In this document: positions 11,902 to 42,426 of the stretch, in pieces
Layout of the letters: each line of letters starts with the position of its first letter
Position numbering within the stretch: the first letter of the stretch is position 1
Virus record (IMG/VR): IMGVR_UViG_3300000547_000196
Span: 21,637 to 72,019 of that record
Source of the DNA: a virus
Reading direction: 5' to 3' (one strand)
DNA length: 50,383 bases
Program-made: the position numbers and the translations under genes
The notes under the pieces: generated by a model
What the model was told of the DNA's origin: nothing
Database searches by the model: none
The model's input: only the letters and a program-made list of their open reading frames with translations

Positions 11902-12680
11902 TAGGGTTGTTGTCCTAATGCTGTTAGTGCTGCTGCAATTCTATCTAATGCTTCTGATACACTATCTGGGGATTCTCCTGCCCAGTCGCTTGTATTTTCT
12001 GGGGTGTATGGCACAATTCCATTAACGCCGTCGATTAATAAAGTGCTGTCGTCACCAAATACAGAGCCTTTAAAATCGCCGCTTAAGCTAACAAGATCTT
12101 GATCCGTTAAAATATTTGGTTTATTAGAAACTTCTGCCCAACTTACAGAACCAGGCCGCCAAGCACCACCGAAGAATTTTAAAAATGAATTGGTGTTAGG
12201 GGAACCAGTATATGAAACATCAAATAGATCTTGAATAGATTTAGTAGATAAATCAACTGATAAAACTATGTCAGTTGGCTCATATTGATTGGCTAAATCG
12301 TTCCATACAAGCGCCTGGTTGTTTTCTGGATTGTCTACGCTTACTTCATCTAGGTCTCTAATGTTTTGTGGAATCGCAGGTAGATCACTCAAATCATTAT
12401 AACTGCCAGAAAAACCGCTTGTTGGTAAGTTTTGTAGATCATTGTAATCTCCTGTAAATGCAACACTAGACAACGGAGCATTATTTGAATCACCTGGTGT
12501 TCCGGAAGGATCAATTGTTTGAGATCCTATTGTTAAACTTTGAACATTTGCTGGTCCATTTATATCTAAACCGACAGCATTTATTATATCGCTTCCAAAA
12601 AGGTCAAGAGAATCTCCTTCAGGTAATTCTTTTAGAGTTCCTGTTTCTGGATCTACTACAAGTGGAAATCTATTTGTCAT
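11901..12680 (-). CDS. tail fibre-like protein, 259 aa
   Basis: Fibre protein of 259 residues. It has paired GDYNDLQNLP and GSYNDLSDLP repeats (about residues 75-98) and a later WAEVSNKPNILTDQDL motif, both typical of phage tail fibres. The C-terminal tail SPDSVSEALDRIAAALTALG looks like a trimerising helix. It overlaps the stop of the giant fibre by 1 nt (TAATG), so the two products are made together and may interact. Confidence 0.82.
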   Translation of the reverse strand: MTNRFPLVVDPETGTLKELPEGDSLDLFGSDIINAVGLDINGPANVQSLTIGSQTIDPSGTPGDSNNAPLSSVAFTGDYNDLQNLPTSGFSGSYNDLSDLPAIPQNIRDLDEVSVDNPENNQALVWNDLANQYEPTDIVLSVDLSTKSIQDLFDVSYTGSPNTNSFLKFFGGAWRPGSVSWAEVSNKPNILTDQDLVSLSGDFKGSVFGDDSTLLIDGVNGIVPYTPENTSDWAGESPDSVSEALDRIAAALTALGQQP

Positions 12681-15600
12681 TATGTTCTTCCTACTACAAT
12701 TTCTATTACGCCCTTGCCGTCGTCACTTTTCTCTTCAAGGGATTTACCTATAACGGTGCCGACTTTAGGTTCATTGTTTACTACCGCAAATCCCGGTATT
12801 GCAGAAGTTACAAGAAGATCACCTTTCTCAACCTTACCTAATACTTTGCAAGGTAGTCTTCCTTGTAACGCAACAGCAACAATGTTAGTACCCGTTAAAT
12901 CACTATTCATAAGATAGGCAGGATTTGTGGACAGTACACCTGCTATCCTTTTATCACCTTTTGTCTGTGTAACCGTTACTTCGTTGTGACCACCAAATAC
13001 AAGAACCGTGCCTGGTTCATAGTCCGCATCTGCAACATATTTTTCTGCTAGGTCAGCATATTTTGCTTCTGTTGCTACACCGTTAAACACATTCGAGTAT
13101 ATTGTATCAAATCTGCGTGAGTTTGATCCAAGATTTCTTGTACCGGTTTGATCTGGTTGTACATCACTTGCGAGGTTGGCATTTATAGTTAAATCATCGT
13201 TACTATCAGAGCCTAGTGTAATGTTGCCATCTACGCTGAAGTTACCTGTTGTTGATAAGTTATTGTCTATTTCGGTATTTGTATCACTGACAACTATTCT
13301 AGGAGTGCCACCTGTGACAAGGATAATTTTTGATGCGCCGTCTTCCGTAAATCCTACATTGTCGCCTAGACCAATTCCTGTAGAAGTTGAACCTCTTTCG
13401 GATGCTGCTTCTATAAAAGAAGTATACATCCAATCAGTTGCTAGCCATCCTTCGCCAGAAAGAGCAGATCTATTCTGGAAAGTGCTTTGAGTGGTTATAT
13501 TAGTTGCTCCTACATCTAAATTGCCAGGAAACTTTGTTACCAACGTAGAATCAGTATCACCAGCAGCACTAAAGACTTCAGCCCCGGCCGGTGTATTAAA
13601 AGAAACCGTATTAGACAGGACATTGATTATATCGTTTGCGCCAATCTGCAGAGCAGTAGCATCAATTTTGCCGTTAGGATCTCTTTTGACCATGGTATCT
13701 GCAGAGGCAGAAACTGATATTTCAGTCACGCCGTATACCGCATCACCGTCTCCGTCATCGTCTTGTAGTCTTACAAGAACTTCTCCTGGCGCACCAGTGT
13801 CTGCATCTACTACGGTATTAACAAAGTCGCCGTCTGCTAGACCTTTGCCGTCGTCAACTACTGTACTAAAATCTATTGCACTGGGGTCTCCAGTTCCTGC
13901 AGCAATCCTACCGTAAATCTGAAATTGGTCTAGGTCGGGAATTTCTGCGAAAGCAATTCCGTCGTCTTTGATTCTTACATAGCCGCTGTCGGTTTCAAAG
14001 TTGTTATCTGAAAACTTTGCGAGACCAAGATCAGATTGTGTTTTAGATGTCGAGGTCCAACCAGATGTAGAATTGTCTTCGTCAAAAGTATCAGCCGACT
14101 GCATGTTTAGTTTGCTTTGAGCAATTTCAGCGGTCGGGCTTACGTCTGCATTAATTAAAGATTCGTTTTGTATTTGTAAGTCGTAAGTAGTTGCATTTTC
14201 TGTTCTTTCTACTGTAACGTTGATTACTGAATCAGTCTTTTCACTTGCATTTGCCCATTCGTAAACAGGTTCTTCGATTATTTCTCTACCTACAGATTCG
14301 TCTGGTTGATTATATATGGTTTCTCCCTGTATGAAGTCACCACCGGCTCCTGGTGTATAGGTAATTTCGTCAATCTCGCCGAGAATCGAATCTGTTCTAT
14401 TCTGAGTATCAACGACTGTTCCTGTTTTTGTGCTTCCTATTGTTCCTATAGTGTCACCGGGAACAATACCTAATCCGTCTTCGATGAAGATTTTCTTATT
14501 ACCCGTTGCAACTAACAAATCATTAGCCTGTATTGAGTTAATTTCTGTATCTCTGAGAGAAGGAATGTCGTCAAACGTTCTAGAGACACCATCTACATAA
14601 TTTTTGTTTGCGGCTGCTGTGCCGTCGGGACCAGGTAGAGCAACATTTGTAATATTATTAGCTCCGAGGTTTAAGTCACCTTCAAGTGTGGCTCCTCCGT
14701 TTAACGGAAGGAAACCAGGGCCAATTCTAATACCACTAGGAGGGCCTTCTATTTGTGTAAAGTTATCAACATTGTATCCTAGAGCTCTGTTGATATAATT
14801 ATAGATAGCTCTTTCTGTAGGAACAGCTTGTCCGCTTTGATCTGAAAAAGAGTCGTCTGCACTAAACTCATTTATTGTTACACCTCTTGTGAACCCTAAT
14901 GCGTTTGCGCCTGTGATTCCTATAGATCCGCTAAATGTAACGTCACCTGTTCCTTGGTCTACAGAGAAGAATTTACCTACTCGGAAGAAACCGTCTTGGT
15001 CAGTTGACACATAAAATACTCTGCCTTTTCTTCTTTCCCAAACCTGAGAAGAAGTTGCTGTTACTGCATCTGTGTAATCTGATGCGAGGCTATTTATGGG
15101 TTGACCAAAAATGACGTTAGGATAGTTAGAGTCATTAAATCCACCTGCGCCGATTTGAGTAAAATCATGTCCTGTTGCTCTAAGAAGAGATATTGAAATT
15201 GTAATCTCTGCTGTAGAATCTTGTGGCAACCCTGCATATATTAGTGTTTCGTCTGTATTAGGAATAGCAGCGTTTAAACCAGTTATGCCTGTGGCAGAAC
15301 CGTCGATATTAGTATCCGATACATCTTGTATTACAATGTATGGAAAACTTTCATCTGTATCATTGTATTCTATAACAGCATGGGTTTTTCCAGCCCAAAC
15401 AAATATCATACCACTCGAATATCCGGAATCTCCAGGCTGATTGCCTGCTATGTCTCTCGTAAGACGTTCTTGTAATTCTTCGTCGCCAATCGGAGCAACG
15501 GCAATTCGTGTGTCTCCCTGACTATCACCGAAACCTCCCGAAAGATTAGTAGGATCAGTTTCAATTTCGATGTATTCATAATCTACTTCGGCGGTAGCTG

Positions 15601-18600
15601 TTATCTCTGTAGCTGAAAGATCTACGCCTACGCCATCTGTGGGATCAAAAGCAAGCGTTCTATAAGTGGTAGTATCTGATTCGTCAAAGTTAATTGCAGT
15701 CGAAGGTCTAGTTTGTAAAGCTTCTTGATTTCTAATTCCGTTAAAAACAAAATTAGGACCGGACCGGTATTCAAGTATTTCTCCATCTGGAACATCAGCT
15801 TGTAATGACTCAAAGAAATCTCCTTGAATATTAGGATCGGCAGTGATATTCATGGCGTAGACAACAGGACTTTGTAAAGTACCAGAAGCTAGAATATCAT
15901 TTGGATCGTCGCCAATCTGGCCGTCTATATCGCTGTCTGATAAGCTTCTTATGCTAGATATTCTATAATTTAATAAACCTGTGCTTCCTCCGTGATCTAT
16001 TCTTATAATACTCTGCGGAGTAGGAGTAAATTTGAGATCAGTCACATGAATTGTTTGATCCCCTGATGCATTAGGTTCTGATATTGTTGTGTAAGCCTTC
16101 GCTGGCTGTACTAAAGGTGTATCTAATACTACTTGATCTGGAATTTCATTTGGATCTGAACCTTCTGCAACAAGGCCAAAGAAACCATAGCCGTTTGAAC
16201 CGTTGAGTGACCTAATCTCTGAGCCATTTTTAGCGTAGTATGCTGCTTGGCAGTAATATGTAAACATCGATACCATCTCAGAGACAGCACCGTTGTTTGT
16301 AACAAGGCCGTACCCTAAGTCGTTTATCTGGGTAAAATCGTTGCCTAACATTGATCTATTACCTGCAGTTTGCAGGAATACTTCTTGAGGTGCCGAATCT
16401 GTGAAACCCTGTCCTACTCCTGTTGCAGGATCTGGGTTAGAAGTTGCGTCGAGGAATATCGTTGCTGTTCCATTGCCGCTATCGTAATTAGAAATAGAAT
16501 TAACTTGATATCTTATACCTTCATAGAAAAAAGGACATGGCAATTCTGGGGGCCGGATAAACAACCCTTGATTTAAATCACTTTCTACATCTAGTATAAA
16601 ATCGCTTTGTTTATTAATAATACGTACAGGAATATTTCCAACAAAGGCATCAACATACATACCACCCCTAAAACGTTTTTCGTTGTCGCTCTTGGAGAAC
16701 GAACTACCTGTTTGAATATAAGGAGATTTTGTAAGAATCTGTCCAGCGGGATCTAGAACAACCATAAATCCGCCGTGCCCTTGAACTGTGACGTTTCTCA
16801 CAATAGTTGCATCTGACATTTGAAAAACATCTACTTGGTCGGCATCATTTTGTTTTGGAGGATTGTAATTTGTATTGTAACAGAACACAATTAGATCTAT
16901 TAGATCAGTGACAAAGCCTACTGTTCCGTCTTCTGCCGCGCCAAGTGTAACATCTGGAACAATTTCTCCATTCTGCGTAGGTGCTTGACCTTGTAAAAGG
17001 TCTGAACAAATCAAACTTATCTGTGTTATTGCTTGCTCTATTGCAGGCTGGTCTCCTTGATCTATTTCTGTAAAAAATTTACCCTGCTGTTCCAGTGCAA
17101 ACTCTGCACCTCCGATGCCTAAATCTTTTACTATAGCATCTATAACTTGTCCAATCCTTTCTCTTAATAGAGTCTCATTATATGAAAAACCAATAAAAAC
17201 CGCCGGATCACCTGTACCAATTCCTGTGTTAATATATTCTATAATTTCTTCTTGTATAAATCTTTTGTTATTTTCTAAGATAGAAACTGCAGTTGAAAAA
17301 CCGCCAGGATTGTTGGGAATAGTACCTACATTTTTATCGGAGTGAGGATCTTCAAGATACCATTTTCCAAAATATCCCTGTATCTCGTCTATCTGATTAA
17401 GGAAGTAGCCAACTTCGTTCGCAACCACAAACATTCTACCTTCCGCAGCAGTCCATGATAAATCAGTTCCGCCTTGGGAGTCAGATATAGTAATAGTATC
17501 TCGTGGTGTTCCTGGAACAATGCTGGTTACATAATAAACGATATCTCTTTCAATTTCAGAACCTATTAGATTTGCCCCGGCAAATTTTACAGCCTGACCA
17601 ACAGACATCCAAGAAGCATCGTCTACTTCAATTGCTTGAGGAGCAGAATCACCTAAAGAGAATACAGTCGAGTGTTTTATGTCAACTAATGGTATATCAT
17701 CAAATTCTAGATCTTTATAAAAATAAGTGGTAGCCCATTTAGATTGAGATGTTCTCTTTTTAGGACGTATGATTACACGCCTAAATTCGTCGCCTTTTAA
17801 GGATACATTGTTTGATAGCCTTATCGGAAAATCTTCTTCGTAAATTCCACTTTCAACAAAAATAGTAACCTGTTTGTTTTTAACAAAATTACCAAACGTC
17901 ATTGTTTCGCCTGGTATGAAATCAACTGCGTTCTGTGGAAGTAATTCTAATACGTCGTTATTATCTTCTGTCGGATCAGCAGAAGTATAGGAGATAATTC
18001 TGCCCTGGGCGCCTGACCTGTCTCCTACTACAACCTTACCAGGAAGCAGGTCAAGGTTGTCTGGATTTCCTTGATCAACATAAGGTTGCGAACTCGATCC
18101 GTTATCTATAACAAGCTTATAATTATTGCCAAACGCGATATCTGCACCTGCGTCAATTCCATCGTTTATAATAGTTTCTATAAGCGAAAATTTAGAATTA
18201 ACCGAAGATATACCAGTGGAGTCTGCAGTAATTCCCTGGAACTCGGGTTTAAATCTAACGCTGCTAATAAAACTTTCCCTTTCTTGATAAACAATGCCTA
18301 CTTCACCGCCTGCAGTAAACAGAGTATATGAACTTATATCAAAAAAGTTCTGTAAACCTGCGTCTTCATAAAGTTCAACAGTTGTGTCATTGATCACTCT
18401 TAAGTAGGCGGTTTGTCCTTCAATTTCTGTCATGCCACCTACGTTTTGGAACAGGATTTGTTCTCCGTCTGTATATCCATGCGGAGAGGTTGTTATAACT
18501 CTTGCTCTAGGAACGGTAGTTGACTCGTCTACTGTTATATTTTGTATGTCTCTCTGTTTGAAGAGTTCGTTTTGAAAGATTGAGCCTAAAACAAGATTTG

Positions 18601-20311
18601 CAAAATTTATTCCGTCTAGTGTCTGTGTTTTTTGGGTGGTAATTGCCGATAAACCAGACGAATTAGCATAATATCTTTCTGCTGCTTGCCGTGTTAATGT
18701 ATTTGCATTAACTCCTCTATTCAAATCAAAAGCAATAGCATCTAGAATTAATCCAATATCTCTTTCACAGGTTTCTTCGTCGTAAACAAAATCTGGATAA
18801 GTGAAATTAATATATCCTGTAACTTCTTTTTTGATATACTCTCTATTATTACGAATAAACTTAGCAGTAACAGTAAATTGTGGTGATACAATGCCCGCTT
18901 CGATAACTGTGGAGTCCGAATCTCCATTGTCGTTTGTTATTGTTTGAAAGTAAGGACCAGGTTCAGGCAAACTGGTTTCGATTATTTCTTCTGCACGGCG
19001 AGCAGCAGCGTTTACTGTTCTAAAAGCATAATCAAGAGCAGTTCCTTCTCTGCCTGGAGGCACACCTTGCATGGAATCGTCGCCCGATAAACTTACAAAA
19101 AGGTTTTCAGTTGAAGAGTAAGTGGTAGTATCAACATATAATTTCGTTGCTGCTTGGAGATCGTCATCCCCATTAACCGTGCCGAAACCTGCTAGCTCGC
19201 CAGGATGATCGTGGAGATTTAAGGCACCTTCCATAGTGTCTCCCTGTCGACGAACAAGGCCTTTGCGTGGTACTGCGGCGTTTGCAAGATAATTTCCTTC
19301 TAATGTAGGGTCAAAGCCAGCGTCGGTAAGAGTGTGAACTTCGTCGTCAGGTATTGTTCCTGACAGGAAGATTTTATTTTGTTCTGCGGTAATATCACTA
19401 GGATCTTCAGCGTTATCTTCTGTAAGGTAAGCCGCTAATTGATCATCGTTAACGTACCTTAAGAAATAAACAGGCTTGACTTCTACGTTCGCATCTGTTG
19501 GTGTGCCATCTCTATCAGCTCTGAAAATTAAATTAAGTTCATTTCTTTCTGCACCAAAACTAGTCCAGTCTAAAGAGTCTGGTGCGATAATTTGATAACT
19601 TCGACCTTCTACGATCAAAGAAGCATCATTTGTGCTGTCTAAGCCGTTAGGATCATTGTACCTAGAATCAAACGTAAACGCTTGACCATTAACCGTTCTA
19701 TCAAATCCATGATCTAAAACTTCTACATTACCGTCTACGTATCTGTTTATATCAAGATTATATTGATCTGATGTAGCCGGTTCGTCGGCTACTCTTACCG
19801 GAAGTCCACTTGTAATATAACGTCTGTCTGCATACCCTTTTGTTATAACAAGATCATCTATGTTAATATCGGTGTTGTGTCGGGTATTAAATTCGTCTAC
19901 AGCAAAGTCAGAAATAGCAACATTAGCAATCGCATTATTGCCAACATTTAGAGGACCGCCTAAAAGTGGTTGTGTGTCATCAGACAACTGAGTAAAGGAA
20001 GTTGTAATTACTAATTTACCATTCACTGAATAGTCAAAAACTATTGTGTCAGTGACTTCGGGATCTAGCTCAGAATTAGAAGCAAGCTCTAAAAGATTTA
20101 TAAAACTACCGGTGTCGTTAACTACAGGAATGCCGTTCGGTATCAAGGCTTCCGGAGTGTCTCCTAGAGATGTAAAATCTATTGTACCACCTTCACCAAA
20201 AACAGCATATAGTTCTACAAAGTTTTCGTTGGTTTTTCGAAACGATTCTCTAATGGAATCACCAGTGCCATCATTGCCCTCTACACCAATATCAATATCT
20301 TGTCTTGCCAT
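12680..20311 (-). CDS. giant tail fibre, 2543 aa
   Basis: Probably the long host-recognition fibre. The N-terminal about 35 residues carry the NDGTGDSIRESFRKTN attachment motif shared with the 11151-11876 fibre. The middle is long beta-rich repeat sequence, including parts that resemble a parallel beta-helix (VTIFVESGIYEEDFPIRLSN at about 815). The C-terminal 130 residues (YADLAEKYVADADYEPGTVL, then IAGVLSTNPAYLMN) resemble the self-cleaving or chaperone-like C-terminal domain of marine phage fibres; residues there could direct trimer folding and then be cut off. At 7.6 kb it is 15 percent of the window. No cysteine clusters or enzyme motifs are evident. SD GGAG precedes the ATG at 20311. Confidence 0.9.
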   Translation of the reverse strand: MARQDIDIGVEGNDGTGDSIRESFRKTNENFVELYAVFGEGGTIDFTSLGDTPEALIPNGIPVVNDTGSFINLLELASNSELDPEVTDTIVFDYSVNGKLVITTSFTQLSDDTQPLLGGPLNVGNNAIANVAISDFAVDEFNTRHNTDINIDDLVITKGYADRRYITSGLPVRVADEPATSDQYNLDINRYVDGNVEVLDHGFDRTVNGQAFTFDSRYNDPNGLDSTNDASLIVEGRSYQIIAPDSLDWTSFGAERNELNLIFRADRDGTPTDANVEVKPVYFLRYVNDDQLAAYLTEDNAEDPSDITAEQNKIFLSGTIPDDEVHTLTDAGFDPTLEGNYLANAAVPRKGLVRRQGDTMEGALNLHDHPGELAGFGTVNGDDDLQAATKLYVDTTTYSSTENLFVSLSGDDSMQGVPPGREGTALDYAFRTVNAAARRAEEIIETSLPEPGPYFQTITNDNGDSDSTVIEAGIVSPQFTVTAKFIRNNREYIKKEVTGYINFTYPDFVYDEETCERDIGLILDAIAFDLNRGVNANTLTRQAAERYYANSSGLSAITTQKTQTLDGINFANLVLGSIFQNELFKQRDIQNITVDESTTVPRARVITTSPHGYTDGEQILFQNVGGMTEIEGQTAYLRVINDTTVELYEDAGLQNFFDISSYTLFTAGGEVGIVYQERESFISSVRFKPEFQGITADSTGISSVNSKFSLIETIINDGIDAGADIAFGNNYKLVIDNGSSSQPYVDQGNPDNLDLLPGKVVVGDRSGAQGRIISYTSADPTEDNNDVLELLPQNAVDFIPGETMTFGNFVKNKQVTIFVESGIYEEDFPIRLSNNVSLKGDEFRRVIIRPKKRTSQSKWATTYFYKDLEFDDIPLVDIKHSTVFSLGDSAPQAIEVDDASWMSVGQAVKFAGANLIGSEIERDIVYYVTSIVPGTPRDTITISDSQGGTDLSWTAAEGRMFVVANEVGYFLNQIDEIQGYFGKWYLEDPHSDKNVGTIPNNPGGFSTAVSILENNKRFIQEEIIEYINTGIGTGDPAVFIGFSYNETLLRERIGQVIDAIVKDLGIGGAEFALEQQGKFFTEIDQGDQPAIEQAITQISLICSDLLQGQAPTQNGEIVPDVTLGAAEDGTVGFVTDLIDLIVFCYNTNYNPPKQNDADQVDVFQMSDATIVRNVTVQGHGGFMVVLDPAGQILTKSPYIQTGSSFSKSDNEKRFRGGMYVDAFVGNIPVRIINKQSDFILDVESDLNQGLFIRPPELPCPFFYEGIRYQVNSISNYDSGNGTATIFLDATSNPDPATGVGQGFTDSAPQEVFLQTAGNRSMLGNDFTQINDLGYGLVTNNGAVSEMVSMFTYYCQAAYYAKNGSEIRSLNGSNGYGFFGLVAEGSDPNEIPDQVVLDTPLVQPAKAYTTISEPNASGDQTIHVTDLKFTPTPQSIIRIDHGGSTGLLNYRISSIRSLSDSDIDGQIGDDPNDILASGTLQSPVVYAMNITADPNIQGDFFESLQADVPDGEILEYRSGPNFVFNGIRNQEALQTRPSTAINFDESDTTTYRTLAFDPTDGVGVDLSATEITATAEVDYEYIEIETDPTNLSGGFGDSQGDTRIAVAPIGDEELQERLTRDIAGNQPGDSGYSSGMIFVWAGKTHAVIEYNDTDESFPYIVIQDVSDTNIDGSATGITGLNAAIPNTDETLIYAGLPQDSTAEITISISLLRATGHDFTQIGAGGFNDSNYPNVIFGQPINSLASDYTDAVTATSSQVWERRKGRVFYVSTDQDGFFRVGKFFSVDQGTGDVTFSGSIGITGANALGFTRGVTINEFSADDSFSDQSGQAVPTERAIYNYINRALGYNVDNFTQIEGPPSGIRIGPGFLPLNGGATLEGDLNLGANNITNVALPGPDGTAAANKNYVDGVSRTFDDIPSLRDTEINSIQANDLLVATGNKKIFIEDGLGIVPGDTIGTIGSTKTGTVVDTQNRTDSILGEIDEITYTPGAGGDFIQGETIYNQPDESVGREIIEEPVYEWANASEKTDSVINVTVERTENATTYDLQIQNESLINADVSPTAEIAQSKLNMQSADTFDEDNSTSGWTSTSKTQSDLGLAKFSDNNFETDSGYVRIKDDGIAFAEIPDLDQFQIYGRIAAGTGDPSAIDFSTVVDDGKGLADGDFVNTVVDADTGAPGEVLVRLQDDDGDGDAVYGVTEISVSASADTMVKRDPNGKIDATALQIGANDIINVLSNTVSFNTPAGAEVFSAAGDTDSTLVTKFPGNLDVGATNITTQSTFQNRSALSGEGWLATDWMYTSFIEAASERGSTSTGIGLGDNVGFTEDGASKIILVTGGTPRIVVSDTNTEIDNNLSTTGNFSVDGNITLGSDSNDDLTINANLASDVQPDQTGTRNLGSNSRRFDTIYSNVFNGVATEAKYADLAEKYVADADYEPGTVLVFGGHNEVTVTQTKGDKRIAGVLSTNPAYLMNSDLTGTNIVAVALQGRLPCKVLGKVEKGDLLVTSAIPGFAVVNNEPKVGTVIGKSLEEKSDDGKGVIEIVVGRT

Positions 20312-34293: not shown

Positions 34294-34405
34294 AGACAAA
34301 GTGTGCGAAAAGATATGGGACGAGTCTAGTCTTGTTTGTACTCTAGGAGTAGGAGCAGCCGTAGGCTCGCTTGTTATGGCTGTAATCGTTCTTATTGTTA
34401 TTTAG
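34280..34405 (+). CDS. very small membrane protein, 41 aa
   Basis: Read directly: ATG at 34280 or 34283, behind AAGGA, overlapping the preceding stop. The product MEIRDKVCEKIWDESSLVCT ends in one hydrophobic span (LGVGAAVGSLVMAVIVLIVI). It is the third membrane protein in a row and overlaps the convergent cyclase stop by 8 nt. Three short membrane proteins in one coupled operon suggest a membrane complex. Confidence 0.6.
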   Translation: MMEIRDKVCEKIWDESSLVCTLGVGAAVGSLVMAVIVLIVI

Positions 34406-36452
34406 AATCTGCTATAAACACGCCGTTCCAGTCTCGAGGTAAATCCTGCTTTGCCATAAAGTCACAGCGAGCCTGCCACATTTCATAGTAAGCAGTCATT
34501 CTGTCGTCAAATTCTGTTTTTAGATCTTCGCATAATGCCCTTGCTCTGTCGAACTTCTGTGCCTGATACAATTTGTGCATACGATTGTGTTCTTCCTGTG
34601 CAAGCAAATAGGCGCCTATATCAACACCTTCTGTATCTAACACTGTGTAAATGCCAATGCCATAACTCTTGCCTTTTACAGCAAGATCATCTACCTTAAG
34701 GAAGAAAAAGTCTTCCGCACACTGTTTTACTGTGTCTTCTCCGACAAGAAGTAGACATCCGTATTCCTTACACTTTGATTCAATTCTTGCGGCAGTAGAG
34801 ACTGCGTCCCCCAAAACATCATATGAGTGTCGTTTTGTAGAACCCATTTCTCCGAGATAGCCAACACCACTGTTAATGCCAGCGCCCATACCAACAGGAG
34901 GGCGTCCTTCTTGAGTAATTTTGTCATTGAATTTCTCCACGGCTCGTATCATTGCCAAACCTGTTTCTACTGCGGTGTGCGGATGATCGTCATCTTCAAG
35001 CGGAGCACCGTGTATGTGCATACTTGCATCACCTATGTATTTTATTATCATACCGTTTCTTTCAATCACAGGCTCTGTTATGGCATCCATATAGCCATTC
35101 ATTAGCGCAGTCAATCCTTTTACATCGTCGCCAAACGATTCACCCAGAGGCGTGAATCCTCGCAAGTCTGAGAACACAATAGAAATATCTTGTTTTGTGC
35201 CTTCCTTGACAAGCGCGGGATTTTCCTGTAGCAGTTTGACAACCGCAGGTGATGCATAGCCTGCAAACTGTTTCTTGATTGCCTGTTTCTCTCTAAACTC
35301 TTTCACAAAGCGAAGGAATACAGAGTGCAAGCCAACTAACACTAGAGCAATAACAGCCATAGTGCCGTCAAGCAGATAAAGGTGATTTGTCCAAGCCCAA
35401 TGCACGCCATAAGCCGCGCCAGCACCTAACATAATCATTCCCAAGCCTACCGTCCAGTATGGTGTAAACCTACCTAGAAGAACTACTGCTAATCCTAGAA
35501 CCAGTGTGCCGGCAAGTTCTGCTTGAAATGCCCAGTATGGTCTTTCTATCTGTTCTCCGTCTATGAGAGTCTGCAGTGTAACAGCAGCAGGTTCATAGTT
35601 GTATCGTGGACCTGTAGGTGATGCTATTACACCACCTATTCCCGCAGCCTGTGCGCCTATTATAACAGTCTTGCCTTGAAAACGAGAAAAGTCCTGTTCT
35701 GCTGCGGATATCGTAGGAAACTCTTTGTTCCAGCGCAGCCATATCCTTCCGTTGGGATCTGTGTTTATGACGGGGAAGCCAGGCACTCTGACAGCTTCTA
35801 TGCCTGCGCCCTGTTCTTTTACCTGGTAGGAAGGCTGTTGAGTTGCTACTCGAATAACTTCTATGCCCAGTGATGGAAACACTTCATTGTCTACTCGCAT
35901 GAGCAGAGGCACTCTTCTTACTACACCGTCTCGTTCAGGCACGGTGTTAATAACACCTACACCATCTGCTGATTCGGCCAGTTCGGGTATAGGTCCTAGC
36001 ACGCCCTGCCATTGATAGAGGTAAGGAACAGGATCGCCTATTTTCGCAATGCCTCTAGGCACTGCATTCTGAGATTCACCTGCAATGCCTGTCTGTGCTA
36101 TTACTACACCATTGTTTTCTAGTGTTTCTGCGAGATAGTCATCACCGCCCAGTCTATCTGTTTCTGAAAAAAGCACAGGTATGACAATTACTCCCGCACC
36201 GTCACTACGCAATTGCCATACAATGTCTGCTATTGTTTCTCTGCTCCAGGGCCACTGACCATAGCGTTCTATTGCAGCTTCGTCTATTGCGACAACGCCT
36301 ATGTCTTGAGACTGTTGAACAGTATCTGTCTGTTGCAGTAAATCAAACTGCTTTAGTCGAAGAGTTTCAACTACAAAGCCATCTGAGTAGTGAACAAATA
36401 AAACCACTGCAAGGGTAAGAAACGCAGTAGTCCAATGTGTTAGCCATTTCAT
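34398..36452 (-). CDS. CHASE2-domain class III nucleotide (adenylate) cyclase
   Basis: Membrane receptor cyclase of 684 residues. An N-terminal anchor (about 8-22) leads to an extracytoplasmic CHASE2 sensor (about 30-300), three spans (about 312-328, 333-350, 362-380) and a cytoplasmic class III catalytic domain (about 420-600). Catalytic residues: metal Asp429 (FSDLRGFT) and Asp475 (KYIGDASM); adenine-selecting Lys471 and Asp545 fit ATP, thus cAMP; transition-state Arg556. The usual Asn of the VNxAxR motif is Ser552 (AVSTAAR), which may lower activity. It is the last gene behind the curli-like operon and starts 5 nt after a late motif, with no Shine-Dalgarno. A complete receptor cyclase in a phage is remarkable. 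Confidence 0.93.
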   Translation of the reverse strand: MKWLTHWTTAFLTLAVVLFVHYSDGFVVETLRLKQFDLLQQTDTVQQSQDIGVVAIDEAAIERYGQWPWSRETIADIVWQLRSDGAGVIVIPVLFSETDRLGGDDYLAETLENNGVVIAQTGIAGESQNAVPRGIAKIGDPVPYLYQWQGVLGPIPELAESADGVGVINTVPERDGVVRRVPLLMRVDNEVFPSLGIEVIRVATQQPSYQVKEQGAGIEAVRVPGFPVINTDPNGRIWLRWNKEFPTISAAEQDFSRFQGKTVIIGAQAAGIGGVIASPTGPRYNYEPAAVTLQTLIDGEQIERPYWAFQAELAGTLVLGLAVVLLGRFTPYWTVGLGMIMLGAGAAYGVHWAWTNHLYLLDGTMAVIALVLVGLHSVFLRFVKEFREKQAIKKQFAGYASPAVVKLLQENPALVKEGTKQDISIVFSDLRGFTPLGESFGDDVKGLTALMNGYMDAITEPVIERNGMIIKYIGDASMHIHGAPLEDDDHPHTAVETGLAMIRAVEKFNDKITQEGRPPVGMGAGINSGVGYLGEMGSTKRHSYDVLGDAVSTAARIESKCKEYGCLLLVGEDTVKQCAEDFFFLKVDDLAVKGKSYGIGIYTVLDTEGVDIGAYLLAQEEHNRMHKLYQAQKFDRARALCEDLKTEFDDRMTAYYEMWQARCDFMAKQDLPRDWNGVFIADSK

Positions 36453-36457
36453 AATGA

Positions 36458-36464
36458 TATTTAG
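36458..36464 (-). promoter_or_regulatory. late-like motif CTAAATA, 5 nt from ATG
   Basis: Minus-strand CTAAATATCATTATG. It predicts a leaderless message for the cyclase. One base off the TATAAATA core. Confidence 0.5.
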
Positions 36465-36790
36465 CGTTGATCTATGCTTAGATCGCAGCCCGCAGGATTA
36501 GTGCAGAATTCCTGTATGGAAATAGAGTTTGATGGGGAGTTCTGCTTTATATCTAACGCAATGCCACCGCCACCTGTAAGATTCTGCAGAGAAAACACAG
36601 CACTTGCACCGTTTGATTGTGTGCTATTAACAGAGTGACCATTGCCTATCACAGAACCTTGCAGATAGTTATCGCCACTTGACTGCAACACACTCATTTC
36701 AAAGTCGTTGCCCTGCACAGTTACATCGACATCGCTTGCATTAGCGACTTTGATCAACCCTAATATCGTTAGTGCCAATACCAGTTTCAT
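36461..36790 (-). CDS. minor curlin-like secreted protein (CsgB-like)
   Basis: Start at the ATG at 36790, giving 109 residues: signal peptide (MKLVLALTILGLIKVANA) and a mature protein rich in Asn, Ser, Gln and Gly. The repeated pattern S-x-L-Q-x-x-G-D-N and x-x-Q-x-N is curlin-like (VLQSSGDNYLQGSVIGN, NSTQSNGASAVF), and near the end NSPSNSISIQEF. Compared with CsgA it has fewer and less regular repeats, as expected for a nucleator. A late-like motif lies 5 nt before the ATG. It overlaps the FecR gene by 50 nt. Confidence 0.75.
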   Translation of the reverse strand: MKLVLALTILGLIKVANASDVDVTVQGNDFEMSVLQSSGDNYLQGSVIGNGHSVNSTQSNGASAVFSLQNLTGGGGIALDIKQNSPSNSISIQEFCTNPAGCDLSIDQR

Positions 36791-37880
36791 AACCGTATTT
36801 AACAAAACTGCCTTGAAGAATATCTATAGAATAACCGTGAGATTCACTTAAACGAAACTCAAATATATTGCCTGCTGCATCCTGTCGCCTTACAACAAAC
36901 TCTGGTGGAGGCGCTTCGTAGTAAATACCTGTTTCTTCGTCTAAACCTTCGGGTCTATCCCCGAACACATTCTGCGAAGCAAATTCATCTCCAAGCGCAT
37001 TAGCGGCCTGGTTTTGTAATCGCTCCATAAGTTCAAAAATGTCTACTTCAAGTATATTGCCTGTTTCGCCTAACTCAGTGTCCCAAATACCTTCTATGCT
37101 TTCTGACAGTTTATCTGCATCAAGTTCGTCAAACTCTAGATAATCCACATCCAGTTCTGCGGCCTGCTCTTGCATTTCTCTTCGTGTGGCATCGTATTCA
37201 GATTCATTTCTTACAATAAGCATATTGCCTAACTGATCGGGAGCTATATCTAACACGACAGGCTTGCTAGGCGCTTGGCTAGAAGTAGAAACGGTGGTTG
37301 TTTCAAATGCCTGATTCATTATGACTACGCCTGCGTCTGTTTCTACAGATATTTCTCCTACAAAGCATTCAAGCGCAGCACGAGGATGACTCTGTCTGCA
37401 GGAGGGTAAAAGCGTTATAGTTGAACCGCCTATTTCATTAACAATCATTGCGAAATCTGTGCCGCGCACACCAATAGTAGCCGACGGTGTTTCTATATTA
37501 ACATTTTGTCTATACTTTTTTGCTATTTGGCCGCTTGCATACTTTACCGTGCCAAGACTTGCTTTTAGGCTGATAGATCCTTTATCTTGTGCAGGATCAA
37601 AAACAAACTCGTCTATTACAAGTCGAGAATGTTCTGTAACATCTACTCTAGTGTCATCGCGAAAATCAATACGCATTCTGCCTTTGGCAGTTACAGCAAC
37701 ATCATATGATTCTATAGACACACCAAGTGAACCTTCTATGGTTTCTGAATCTCGTTCAATAGCAGCAGAGCCTGAAATTTCTGATATTGCGCCTATGGCA
37801 GCCCAACTAGTATTAATCAGACTGAATAATATCAACAGCAGCGTTATCGCCTTCAAATGTTGCATCAACTGTGTTATCAT
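36741..37880 (-). CDS. FecR-domain secreted protein, 379 aa
   Basis: N-terminal signal peptide (LKAITLLLILFSLINTSWA) followed by a FecR domain (about 45-165: GSAAIERDSETIEGSLGVSI, RMRIDFRDDTRVDVTEHSRL, GSISLKASLGTVKY, ATIGVRGTDFAMIV). The C-terminal half is acidic and unlike any domain I know. Periplasmic FecR-domain proteins often accompany surface-polymer systems and sigma-factor signalling. The ATG at 37880 has GTGGAA before it; a second ATG at 37865 gives the same signal peptide. It lies between two curlin-like genes, overlapping both. Confidence 0.85.
   Translation of the reverse strand: MITQLMQHLKAITLLLILFSLINTSWAAIGAISEISGSAAIERDSETIEGSLGVSIESYDVAVTAKGRMRIDFRDDTRVDVTEHSRLVIDEFVFDPAQDKGSISLKASLGTVKYASGQIAKKYRQNVNIETPSATIGVRGTDFAMIVNEIGGSTITLLPSCRQSHPRAALECFVGEISVETDAGVVIMNQAFETTTVSTSSQAPSKPVVLDIAPDQLGNMLIVRNESEYDATRREMQEQAAELDVDYLEFDELDADKLSESIEGIWDTELGETGNILEVDIFELMERLQNQAANALGDEFASQNVFGDRPEGLDEETGIYYEAPPPEFVVRRQDAAGNIFEFRLSESHGYSIDILQGSFVKYGYETGIGTNDIRVDQSR
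36796..36802 (-). promoter_or_regulatory. late-like motif TTAAATA, 5 nt from ATG
   Basis: Minus-strand TTAAATACGGTTATG before the CsgB-like start at 36790. It predicts a leaderless message inside the FecR reading frame. Confidence 0.5.
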
Positions 37881-38499
37881 TTATTCCACTCTGTGTAATA
37901 TTGTATACACCGCCGCCGCCAGTTACATCAAGATTTAGACTATGCCCATTAACATCTCCATCACCGTCGATGTCTATGTTAACAGTATTGCCTCCAGCGA
38001 GACTGGCAGAGTTATCAATCACAACAGTAGCATCGGCATTTACACCGTCTACTTCTACATCAACAACATTAGAATCTCCATCTACAGCAAGTGATGCTAC
38101 AAGATTGGAAGCGTCTGCAGTTTCGCCTATTCTAATGTCAATGTCTGCTCCGTTGCCATTTACAGTAACATCAGCAGTAACAGTTTCACAGGTAGCAGCA
38201 TTACCACTGTCACACATCAAATCTACGGAGTTGTTGTTTCCTGTTAGGTTGATAGTGCCTGTATAGGTATTACCGTTTATCTGTGCAGCAATGACATTAT
38301 TATCACCGACTTGATCTATGTCAAAGGTCATGTCGTCACCAGTGAGTATCATAGCCTGCTCTGCAGTTCCAGCAACGTTATCAGTGCCGTCTTGCGTAAT
38401 GTCAAGATCTAGGTTATCACCTATCTGCTGAACATATATTTCGTTTGCGAATACCGCACTAGCGAGAAGTATCAGTGATAGTGTCAGTGTTCTTTTCAT
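37813..38499 (-). CDS. curlin-like secreted repeat protein (CsgA-like)
   Basis: Start at the ATG at 38499 behind AAGGAA, giving 228 residues; the longer frame to 38541 is unlikely. Signal peptide MKRTLTLSLILLASAVFA, then QIGDN, ITQDGTDN, IDQVGDNN and ITQSGINDN, which follow the curlin consensus (Q-x-G-x-x-N). In between are Asp/Asn-rich repeats (VDGDSNVVDVEVDGVNAD) that could form parallel beta-sheet or bind calcium. The protein is longer and more acidic than E. coli CsgA. It overlaps CsgG by 41 nt and FecR by 68 nt, so the genes are tightly coupled. Confidence 0.82.
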   Translation of the reverse strand: MKRTLTLSLILLASAVFANEIYVQQIGDNLDLDITQDGTDNVAGTAEQAMILTGDDMTFDIDQVGDNNVIAAQINGNTYTGTINLTGNNNSVDLMCDSGNAATCETVTADVTVNGNGADIDIRIGETADASNLVASLAVDGDSNVVDVEVDGVNADATVVIDNSASLAGGNTVNIDIDGDGDVNGHSLNLDVTGGGGVYNITQSGINDNTVDATFEGDNAAVDIIQSD

Positions 38500-39295
38500 T
38501 TTCCTTGCCCTCTTTGAATTGCCAGAGATCTTTTTCTTCACCCTGATAGACGAGTTCTATCACTCCGGCTTCTATTGCTGCCCTCACAGCATAGTTCACA
38601 GGTTCGTTTGCTGTCATGCCCATTTCAGTTTCAACGAGTTCTGTGCCCATATCAAAAAAACGAAACAGATTAGCGCCTGTTTTCGTCGAAAGTATTGTTT
38701 TTTCTGTTGCTACAGAAATCAATACTCTCCCAGTGTTGACACTTACTATTCGCATTACCACAGTGACCGTGTCAACTCTATATTCTGTGTCTACGCCAAT
38801 GCCTAGATATCTTGCTCCTGCACCGCCTGTGACTACATTTGCATCATAGCCTACTATACCGCCTTCCAGTATCAAACCAGCAAAACGCATAGGTTGTAGT
38901 TCAGTATCATCTTCTCCGTAGTTCTCTCTCGTATTCCTTATTAACTGACGTTCTTTTACAAGATTGTCTAGGCCTACTCTTTCGACTACATCAAACCAGG
39001 AACCATTGCCTATATCTTGTAAACTTTTAATGACCCATACTTCACTTCCCTGTGTTACAGCAGTTGATAGACTTGCTACTCGCTGATTAGGCTGTCTCTG
39101 ACCTGTTTTGTCTGCAAAGTCATAAACTGCTATTGTTATTTTAGGACCGTCCAGTTCGGGCACATCTGCCAGTTGTTCTCGCATAGGTGCAGGCTGTGTT
39201 TCTGCAGGGGATGACTGAAACCTTTCTTCTCCAGTTGCAGCACATCCTATTAGAAACGCCAAACAAAATGCAATACAAGCGAATGATCCTTTCAA
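38459..39295 (-). CDS. csgG: CsgG, curli secretion pore lipoprotein
   Basis: Outer-membrane lipoprotein that forms the nonameric curli export pore. The lipobox ends at Cys18 (FLIGC). Conserved CsgG sequence is clear: ITIAVYDFADKTGQ, VTQGSEVWVIKSL, WFDVVERVGLDNLVKERQLI, then GGIVGYDANVVTGGAGARYL and GIGVDTEYRVDTVTVVMRIV, TEKTILS and FFDMGTELVETEMG. At 278 residues it matches E. coli CsgG (277). Every element of the pore and transmembrane hairpins appears present. It overlaps CsgF by 4 nt. One of the firmest calls in the window. Confidence 0.96.
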   Translation of the reverse strand: MKGSFACIAFCLAFLIGCAATGEERFQSSPAETQPAPMREQLADVPELDGPKITIAVYDFADKTGQRQPNQRVASLSTAVTQGSEVWVIKSLQDIGNGSWFDVVERVGLDNLVKERQLIRNTRENYGEDDTELQPMRFAGLILEGGIVGYDANVVTGGAGARYLGIGVDTEYRVDTVTVVMRIVSVNTGRVLISVATEKTILSTKTGANLFRFFDMGTELVETEMGMTANEPVNYAVRAAIEAGVIELVYQGEEKDLWQFKEGKENEKNTDTITDTSR

Positions 39296-39771
39296 AAGTA
39301 TAGTTCTCCTGGTCCTGGTATTTCTATCTCTGTAAATCCGTCAGGACCGTCTACTGTAAGCGTAATTGCTCCTGCTTCTGATCTACTCCAAGTAATGGTG
39401 GATCCTTCGATTTCTGTTGATCCGCCGTCTGGTTGAGAACAGGTTTCATTACCCTCTTCGCATTCTGTGAACATATTGTCAACCATCTGCTTGGATAGCG
39501 TGGCATAGATCCTAGATTCTAGGTTCGTCACAAACTTGTTGAGAATACTATCTTCCAGTTCTCTTTCTATTCTTCGCTGTTCTGCTTCACGCCGTTCACG
39601 AATCTCCTGTTCTCTGTTGTATCTCAACTGCTCATTCGCAAGAACATGGTTGCTCCAACCTTGCCCTGAAAAGGCTGGACTTTTGAATTCCCACACTAAC
39701 TCTCCTGCTGACGCAGTTGACACAAACAGCATTAAAAAAAGACAGAGTCTCCTCACGTTGCACCTCATCAT
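39292..39771 (-). CDS. csgF: CsgF-like curli assembly factor
   Basis: Signal peptide (about residues 1-22) then ELVWEFKSPAFSGQGWSNHV, the conserved N-terminal segment by which CsgF plugs the CsgG pore, then LANEQLRY. A charged helix (REQEIRERREAEQRRIEREL) is inserted that E. coli CsgF lacks. The C-terminal part (STITWSRSEAGAITLTVDGP) matches the CsgF beta-domain order. At 159 residues it is slightly longer than CsgF (138). It is the first gene of the curli-like operon, 4 nt from CsgG, with a TTAAATA motif 9 nt from the ATG. No CsgE homologue is visible in the window. Confidence 0.86.
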   Translation of the reverse strand: MMRCNVRRLCLFLMLFVSTASAGELVWEFKSPAFSGQGWSNHVLANEQLRYNREQEIRERREAEQRRIERELEDSILNKFVTNLESRIYATLSKQMVDNMFTECEEGNETCSQPDGGSTEIEGSTITWSRSEAGAITLTVDGPDGFTEIEIPGPGELYF

Positions 39772-39780
39772 TTTACTACG

Positions 39781-39787
39781 TATTTAA
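39781..39787 (-). promoter_or_regulatory. late-like motif TTAAATA before CsgF
   Basis: Minus-strand CTTAAATACG, 9 nt before the ATG at 39771. Candidate for the start of the curli-like operon. One base off the consensus. Confidence 0.45.
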
Positions 39788-41483: not shown

Positions 41484-41487
41484 TTTG

Positions 41488-41559
41488 AGCCTAGGACAGG
41501 ATTCGAACCTGCATATAAACAATTTAAAGTCGTTTGCGTAGACATTCCGCCATCTAGGC
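41488..41559 (-). tRNA. aberrant tRNA, anticodon TTA by structure (ochre suppressor or decayed)
   Basis: Cloverleaf-like: acceptor GCCTAGA with one mismatch, D-arm GCG/CGC, anticodon stem AACGA/TTGTT, T-loop TTCGAAT. The 7-nt anticodon loop is CTTTAAA, so positions 34-36 are TTA, which reads the stop codon TAA. The variable loop has only 5 nt, so it is not a Leu-type tRNA. CCA is not encoded, unlike its neighbours. It may be a Leu(TAA)-derived tRNA shifted by one base. Confidence 0.6.
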
Positions 41560-41904: not shown

Positions 41905-42324
41905 TTATACAATGTGCAAGCCGCATGCTTGCATTAGTTTTTGTTTTACTCTGATGTTAGGCAGACGATAACGAAAGCATTCGTCAAACCCTAGCATTTC
42001 TGCTACTTCTACCACAGCACCTGAGCGACACGCACCCACTACACAATGCACTAAAACATCAGTGTCATTTGCTAATGCTGTTTTCAATATGTCTGCGATT
42101 TCTTGTGCCTGTCTATCTGATATCAACTTCTCCTCTGGAAAAAACTGAGTAGGCGCTTCTGCATCAAGAAACTGAAACGAATGCCGAGACACGAACACAT
42201 CTTCTTTAGGCTCTGGAGGTGTGTCACCTGGATCTGTTATTTGAATGGCAACTGCGCCAAGAGGCGACAGCCTGTGATTACCTTTTTGAAAGTCTGCCCA
42301 GGAACAATTTTCTATTTTTGGCAT
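41905..42324 (-). CDS. protein tyrosine/dual-specificity phosphatase
   Basis: Start at the ATG at 42324 behind AGGAGG; 139 residues. It contains the signature HCVVGACRSG (His93, Cys94, Arg100) of the Cx5R phosphatase class and an N-terminal QITDPGDTPP region that may carry the general acid Asp. The protein is small, like phage and viral dual-specificity enzymes. It is inserted in tRNA cluster 2, directly downstream of an aberrant tRNA. The substrate could be a phosphoprotein or an RNA 5' triphosphate; this cannot be told. Confidence 0.85.
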   Translation of the reverse strand: MPKIENCSWADFQKGNHRLSPLGAVAIQITDPGDTPPEPKEDVFVSRHSFQFLDAEAPTQFFPEEKLISDRQAQEIADILKTALANDTDVLVHCVVGACRSGAVVEVAEMLGFDECFRYRLPNIRVKQKLMQACGLHIV

Positions 42325-42345
42325 ATCGGCCTCCTCGGTTAAAAA

Positions 42346-42426
42346 TGCTGCCGCTTGGATTCGAACCAAGACCATCCTGCTCACTATGTGCTACAATGCA
42401 GGGCTCTACCGTTAAGCTACAACAGC
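42346..42426 (-). tRNA. tRNA-like gene with 17-nt anticodon loop
   Basis: Acceptor GCTGTTG/CGGCAGC, D-arm GCTT/GAGC, T-arm CTTGG/CCAAG with loop TTCGAAT: a normal body. The anticodon stem CCTGC/GCAGG encloses ATTGTAGCACATAGTGA, 17 nt instead of 7. The extra bases include CAC/GTG that could form a mini-hairpin. The identity is therefore unclear (Thr TGT or Tyr GTA depend on what is removed). CCA is not encoded. It may be a decayed tRNA or one with a 10-nt insertion. Confidence 0.6.

Follow-up and report, generated by a model that had tools for sequence, protein, structure and literature searches.

We analysed a stretch of viral DNA of 50,383 nucleotides (the window), which covers positions 21637-72019 of the 106,249-base IMG/VR virus record IMGVR_UViG_3300000547_000196; the record is possibly incomplete. 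The subject is a curli-type (type VIII) secretion operon on its minus strand. A preliminary description, made from the sequence alone, had placed five genes here, encoding CsgF, CsgG, a first curlin-like protein (CurA), a FecR-domain protein, and a second curlin-like protein (CurB). All five open reading frames (ORFs) were found at this place and on this strand, and the overlaps of 4, 41, 68, and 50 nt were reproduced with ATG starts for both curlin-like genes. The operon runs on into a gene for a CHASE2-type nucleotide cyclase, which lies just outside the coordinates of that description and was mentioned there only in passing. The operon is real, and the gene identities and their conserved order were established in this analysis. 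The system is already known; the window copy is a real member of it in a phage lineage for which no report was found in the literature. The genes and the tail region discussed below are as follows.

csgF: 39292-39771, minus strand; pore-associated curli assembly protein of 159 amino acids with a signal peptide (Pfam CsgF, E = 1.4e-13; phrog_35372, E = 5e-36).

csgG: 38459-39295, minus strand; outer-membrane lipoprotein pore of 278 amino acids with lipobox Cys18 (Pfam CsgG, E = 1.2e-52).

curA: 37813-38499, minus strand; first curlin-like protein, with the ORF open from 38541 and the ATG at 38499.

fecR-domain gene: 36741-37880, minus strand; signal peptide, FecR domain, helical linker, and a C-terminal tail that appears curlin-like (Pfam FecR, E = 2.4e-9; phrog_37870, E = 2e-97).

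Putative curlin-like tail of the FecR protein, residues 319-379: 36744-36926, minus strand; invariant Gln377, strands in the AlphaFold2 (AF2) model, and the region used for the tail profile.

curB: 36461-36790, minus strand; second curlin-like protein, short, with the ORF open from 36805 and the ATG at 36790.

CHASE2 sensor with class III nucleotide cyclase: 34398-36452, minus strand; 684 amino acids, last gene of the module (CHASE2, E = 9e-43; Guanylate_cyc, E = 4e-17).

The pore proteins bear the names first given to them. CsgG matches PF03783 and has the lipobox cysteine of a lipoprotein pore, and a profile of the phage CsgG proteins matches the E. coli CsgG structures with E = 4e-71. CsgF matches PF10614 almost from end to end (positions 5-132 of 132), and a direct phmmer search of the window CsgF against solved structures gave no match. 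CsgE, the periplasmic gate of the Gammaproteobacteria type, had been described as missing; it gave no match in the partial 106-kb record and none over the cut-off in nine relatives. It is also absent from alphaproteobacterial modules (PMC9599517). A sub-threshold CsgE-like match (16 bits, E = 0.0017) lies at G792:C1:8654-8827, in a 484-amino-acid open frame in the record of the nearest relative (L003, CsgG 84% identical). We gave up the idea that the loss of the E. coli constriction residues sets phage CsgG apart, because most alphaproteobacterial CsgG proteins likewise have other residues in place of Tyr51 and Phe56.

Among named phages, tblastn matches were obtained in Pelagibacter phage HTVC008M and in four Melnitz isolates. 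Their records list CsgF, CsgG, curlin-associated proteins, and the cyclase with the order unchanged, and FecR is annotated in Melnitz. Scans of viral contigs gave at least 584 CsgG-encoding stretches and 79 FecR relatives. The linkage in related genomes is very strong, as the order CsgF-CsgG-CurA-FecR is found in 138 fetched viral loci (some contigs being counted twice), and in many of them it is followed by a second curlin, the cyclase, or both. The curlin, FecR, and cyclase genes, once thought to be perhaps new to phages, are not, since all are present in HTVC008M, Melnitz, and PMC9599517. A match of 42% identity to CsgG in OR851715.1 (Salmonella phage S.Kent 1-2-1, 1499 bases) is perhaps a mislabelled bacterial csgG fragment.

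Phage curli modules are widespread in the sea, and the published proposals on their purpose disagree. CsgF, CsgG, and three linked genes were reported in pelagimyophages in 2020, and "sibling capture" was proposed (PMC7029224). In 2022, a lysis-timing pore was proposed for Melnitz (PMC9004378), and the full set, including curlins, FecR, and adenylate cyclase, was described in podo- and myophages (PMC9599517). The options listed in the preliminary description, namely aggregation, superinfection block, virion capture, and lysis, are already in these three papers. In the later literature, we found no experimental test of the phage curli module.

HTVC008M (NC_020484) and the type VIII secretion systems of Pelagibacter podo- and myophages (PMC9599517) have the same six genes as the window in the same order (CsgF, CsgG, curlin, FecR, curlin, adenylate cyclase); the published phage module is defined by CsgF-CsgG-curlin-FecR, often followed by curlin-cyclase. 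The histidine kinase directly upstream in the podophage form was not found here, and the two upstream ORFs had no Pfam match up to E = 1. The CsgG of HTVC008M is 51% identical to that of the window. Melnitz (MZ577097; PMC9004378) also shares the order, with identities of 54% for CsgG, 42% for FecR, and 62% for the cyclase, but its second curlin has 338 amino acids versus about 109 in the window. The Melnitz paper says that csgA and csgB are lacking, yet the Melnitz record annotates two curlin-repeat proteins (PMC9004378). As tRNAs were the only Rfam matches at 30-46 kb of the window, the glutamine riboswitch of Melnitz was not seen there.

The window phage is not a pelagimyophage; the phages nearest to it by clamp loader are the PA5oct-type Pseudomonas jumbo phages (53% identity). 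Its clamp loader is 67-88% identical to those of three other curli-bearing records, one of them of 236,751 bases, and only 36% identical to those of HTVC008M, Melnitz, and one further record. By this marker, HTVC008M belongs to another lineage. A Gp23 match is present in HTVC008M, Melnitz, and the further record; none was found in the partial record of the window phage or in its three clamp-loader-close relatives. The missing Gp23 is weak evidence alone since the records may be fragments. The ligase gave no clear lineage signal.

CurA and CurB had both been called curlin-like with curlin-type repeats, and this holds for CurA at the level of the family. In hidden Markov model searches, CsgG, CsgF, and the FecR-domain protein (PF04773), which lies between the two curlin-like genes as described, matched Pfam families. 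CurA of the window on its own scored 17.6 bits against the Curlin_rpt cut-off of 20.7. Curlin_rpt matches 19 of the 24 aligned phage CurA relatives (best E = 4.4e-7), and the number of hxhxQxGxxN motifs in CurA exceeds that in all 2000 shuffles; at the level of its family, CurA is a secreted curlin-repeat substrate. The AF2 model of CurA is all-beta with a predicted local distance difference test score (pLDDT) of 81.5; a Foldseek search with it against solved structures gave nothing significant (best E = 0.14).

For CurB, the claim of canonical repeats did not stand, and the protein is curlin-like via its C-terminal homology only. The window CurB has 109 amino acids versus a median of 244 among phage CurB proteins, which range from 67 (contig ends included) to 445 amino acids and in other phages are long and repeat-rich. 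It keeps the C-terminal module that is common to the phage CurB proteins of 240-445 amino acids. The nearest relative, L003, has the same short CurB with this module conserved. CurA, in turn, is constant in length among the relatives (160-289 amino acids, median 242). This difference would follow if the fibre were built from the repeat-bearing CurB and CurA were a fixed component, and we suggest these roles for them.

The FecR protein starts with a signal peptide, and its FecR domain begins at about residue 60; a cytoplasmic anti-sigma domain before a membrane segment was not found in it. The FecR domain alone resembles the PupR cell-surface signalling domain by fold, and a FecR profile sequence search against solved structures gave chance-level matches only. 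In the AF2 model (pLDDT 82), six strands are formed by residues 319-377 (pLDDT about 91) behind a low-confidence helical linker. Across 36 aligned phage FecR proteins, Gln377 is invariant, and Tyr350, Gln356, Gly367, Ile373, and Ile375 are nearly so. A terminal hydrophobic-x-hydrophobic-x-Gln pattern is present in 103 of 110 viral FecR proteins and in 6 of the 8 from curli loci in bacterial contigs or contigs of metagenome-assembled genomes (MAGs), where one exception is cut by a contig end; outside curli loci, it is found in 1 of 79.

Profile-profile comparison of the tail gave P = 6e-4 with CurB, 0.013 with CurA, and 0.58-0.71 with CsgG and CHASE2. When the tail profile was run over about 16,600 non-FecR ORFs of the loci, the ten best were all CurB. 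Overall, there is moderate evidence that the FecR protein carries a curlin-like tail, and such a tail would provide a concrete hypothesis of binding for the gene of the module that is understood least. We also considered an adhesin-retention likeness of FecR via the Foldseek match 5ix9 ("cell surface anchoring domain"; template modelling score 0.73 by target length, 61 columns, E = 0.019). This match is suggestive only, no supporting paper was found, and the likeness was set aside.

The cyclase keeps the metal-binding Asp429 and Asp475, the adenine-specific Lys471, and Arg556, all four of which are present in 11 of 11 aligned sequences. Of the 52 phage cyclases in which this motif could be read, 46 have Ser at the transition-state position; Asn is kept in L003, in HTVC008M, and in nearly all bacterial cyclases read. 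Of 73 bacterial FecR loci that lack CsgG (L178-L241), 25 have a CHASE2-type cyclase within 1.5 kb of FecR, and this pairing has been reported for Campylobacterota (PMC9239204). FecR with a CHASE2 cyclase is a general two-gene signalling pair that is common in bacteria without curli. Hence, in the phage module, a curli operon seems to have been joined with a FecR-CHASE2 signalling pair that existed before.

A bacterial counterpart was sought with a FecR profile scan over the genomes of 84,980 species, whose sensitivity is limited as it used two short patterns only. It gave several phage-type contigs in MAGs and one clear chromosome, that of Hyphomonas sp. TMED17 (L170, NHBW01000006.1, a 705-kb contig). 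Here, CsgF, CsgG, curlin, FecR, and a CHASE2 cyclase are encoded on one strand in this order, flanked by metabolic and TonB-receptor-like genes (named by eye). A strong phage-like FecR was found in TMED17 only, among 398 genomes of the order. In the CsgG tree, the TMED17 protein joins the phage clade with 100/99 support versus other bacteria; it falls inside or beside that clade (support 91/69) and may have been donor or recipient. Unlike the window operon, TMED17 has one repeat-rich curlin of 504 amino acids, a FecR C-terminus without the terminal Gln motif, and a cyclase that keeps the Asn. Phage-type curli contigs (L164-L169, L172, L327) are also binned in MAGs labelled Rhodobacteraceae, Pirellulales, Flavobacteriaceae, Maricaulis, and Pelagibacter; these labels are not host evidence.

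Other alphaproteobacterial csg operons likewise keep CsgF, CsgG, and curlin genes together, in modules without CsgE (PMC9599517), but in the 19 that we sampled, whose contigs measure from 32 kb to several Mb, neither FecR nor a CHASE2 cyclase was found in the 12-18 kb read. FecR and the cyclase have been stated to be absent from bacterial type VIII secretion operons (PMC9599517). Given the TMED17 operon and the 19 others, this is right as a rule with an exception. The Hyphomonas operon thereby offers a bacterial counterpart for the FecR-cyclase link to curli without a phage.

The timing of the module can be approached through its promoters. The T4-type late promoter core is TATAAATA, and boxes similar to it lie upstream of csgF in many relatives. 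The window has the following candidates.

Candidate T4-type late promoter core TAAATA: 39781-39786, minus strand; just upstream of csgF.

Candidate late promoter core TAAATA: 36458-36463, minus strand; just upstream of the cyclase gene.

Possible further TAAATA: 36796-36801, minus strand; within fecR, just before the curB ATG.

Within the last 60 nt before the gene, TAAATA occurs for csgF in 43 of 96 and for the cyclase in 23 of 48 relatives, versus 0 of 99 for csgG and 0 of 93 for fecR. After dereplication, it precedes csgF in 41 of 74 cases, compared with 7.3 in dinucleotide shuffles (maximum 15), and the cyclase in 23 of 45, compared with 3.7 (maximum 9). The internal genes csgG (0/66) and fecR (0/68) served as the control. 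No other permutation of TAAATA comes near, apart from its own frame-shifted overlaps. The strong enrichment before csgF and the cyclase, with none before csgG and fecR, points to late expression and would be a direct constraint on module timing. Sigma-70 promoters are not in excess in the region (20 found versus 19.6 expected). For late promoters, the query TATAAAT was used in PMC9004378. Over the whole window, the minus strand has 28 copies of TAAATA and the plus strand 11; several copies directly precede minus-strand ORFs, as late promoters should.

Taken together, we regard it as probable, if only just, that this is a late-expressed curli-type secretion operon that exports curlin to the surface of the infected cell, senses through FecR-CHASE2, and brings its benefit around lysis. 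We infer export, fibre formation, FecR-curlin contact, signalling, and an ecological benefit in the following way. CsgG, tuned by CsgF, would form an outer-membrane pore through which CurA and CurB would exit the infected cell; at or close to the cell surface, they would probably polymerise. The FecR protein would be exported to the periplasm. Since it also has a curlin-like tail, its most likely binding partners are curlin subunits or a fibre end at the pore, where it would act as an anchor, nucleator, or export checkpoint. It probably also relays the status of pore or fibre to the adjacent adenylate cyclase via the periplasmic CHASE2 domain of this enzyme. The benefit would most likely arise at or around lysis, when neighbouring hosts and progeny could be kept close to the dying cell.

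A more specific version concerns the FecR protein itself, and we put it forward as a tentative and rather doubtful proposal. It would be a periplasm-held fibre partner and not an iron-type regulator, its tail would dock at the CsgG pore, either on curlin subunits or on the base of the fibre (as an anchor or as a nucleator replacing CsgB), and the FecR-CHASE2 pair would report secretion or fibre status to a cyclic AMP (cAMP) signal late in infection. If this is true, FecR-CHASE2 is a phage-carried secretion-sensing circuit unlike any characterised curli system.

Several observations weigh against an exported, sensed fibre. No clumping was seen by flow cytometry or transmission electron microscopy in Melnitz-infected cultures (PMC9004378). 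Because the window CurB is short and without a canonical repeat, a long fibre may not form here. Single FecR-tail and curlin pairs match weakly (best E = 0.035), and Curlin_rpt is found in 2 of 36 FecR proteins. The tail tests and the late-promoter test were framed after the sequences had been viewed, and the sequences are related. In class III cyclases, loss of the transition-state Asn should lower turnover, and the window cyclase has Ser552 instead; its cAMP output may therefore be low.

Classical lysis timing is an inner-membrane process, but CsgG forms its pore in the outer membrane. This location counts against the repurposing of the CsgG-CsgF pore as a pinholin-like or lysis-timing pore with the curlins as plugs or passengers, as proposed for Melnitz (PMC9004378). 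Such a pore would agree with the late-promoter evidence, with the reduced CurB of the window, and with the CsgE gate going unmatched in the partial record and staying below the cut-off in nine relatives. It leaves unexplained why nearly every copy retains FecR and a secreted CurA of constant length, and why CurB of other phages is long and repeat-rich; we consider it unlikely.

Exclusion systems are usually made early. The late-type cores before csgF and the cyclase and the lack of a sigma-70 excess in the region are at odds with such timing, so a block of superinfection or of competing phages by surface fibres, as proposed in PMC9599517, seems still less likely, and the promoter evidence would fit late roles better than an early block. 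The 109 amino acids of CurB could be taken as a sign that the operon is cargo in decay, present only through recent transfer; we rate this as very improbable since all frames are open, the catalytic residues are kept except Asn552, and L003 has the same short CurB with a conserved C-terminal module. Import of cofactors or iron compounds through the pore, with FecR as an iron-sensing regulator (an option named in PMC7029224 and PMC9599517), is the least probable, as the FecR protein has no cytoplasmic anti-sigma domain and the curlin genes would be left without a role. We retain late curlin export with FecR-CHASE2 sensing as the preferred explanation.

Further features of the window lie outside the operon. 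A tRNA at 41487-41559 (minus strand) has the anticodon loop CTTTAAA with the called anticodon TTA, which would read the stop codon TAA. It is either a candidate ochre suppressor or a degenerate tRNA gene, although 25 of the 41 larger minus-strand ORFs end in TAA, more than in any other stop codon. At 42346-42426 (minus strand), a tRNA was called with a four-base anticodon (gtag), and it overlaps the start of a phosphatase-like ORF (41905-42384). The baseplate and tail-fibre region contains a single ORF of 2543 amino acids at 12680-20311 (minus strand).

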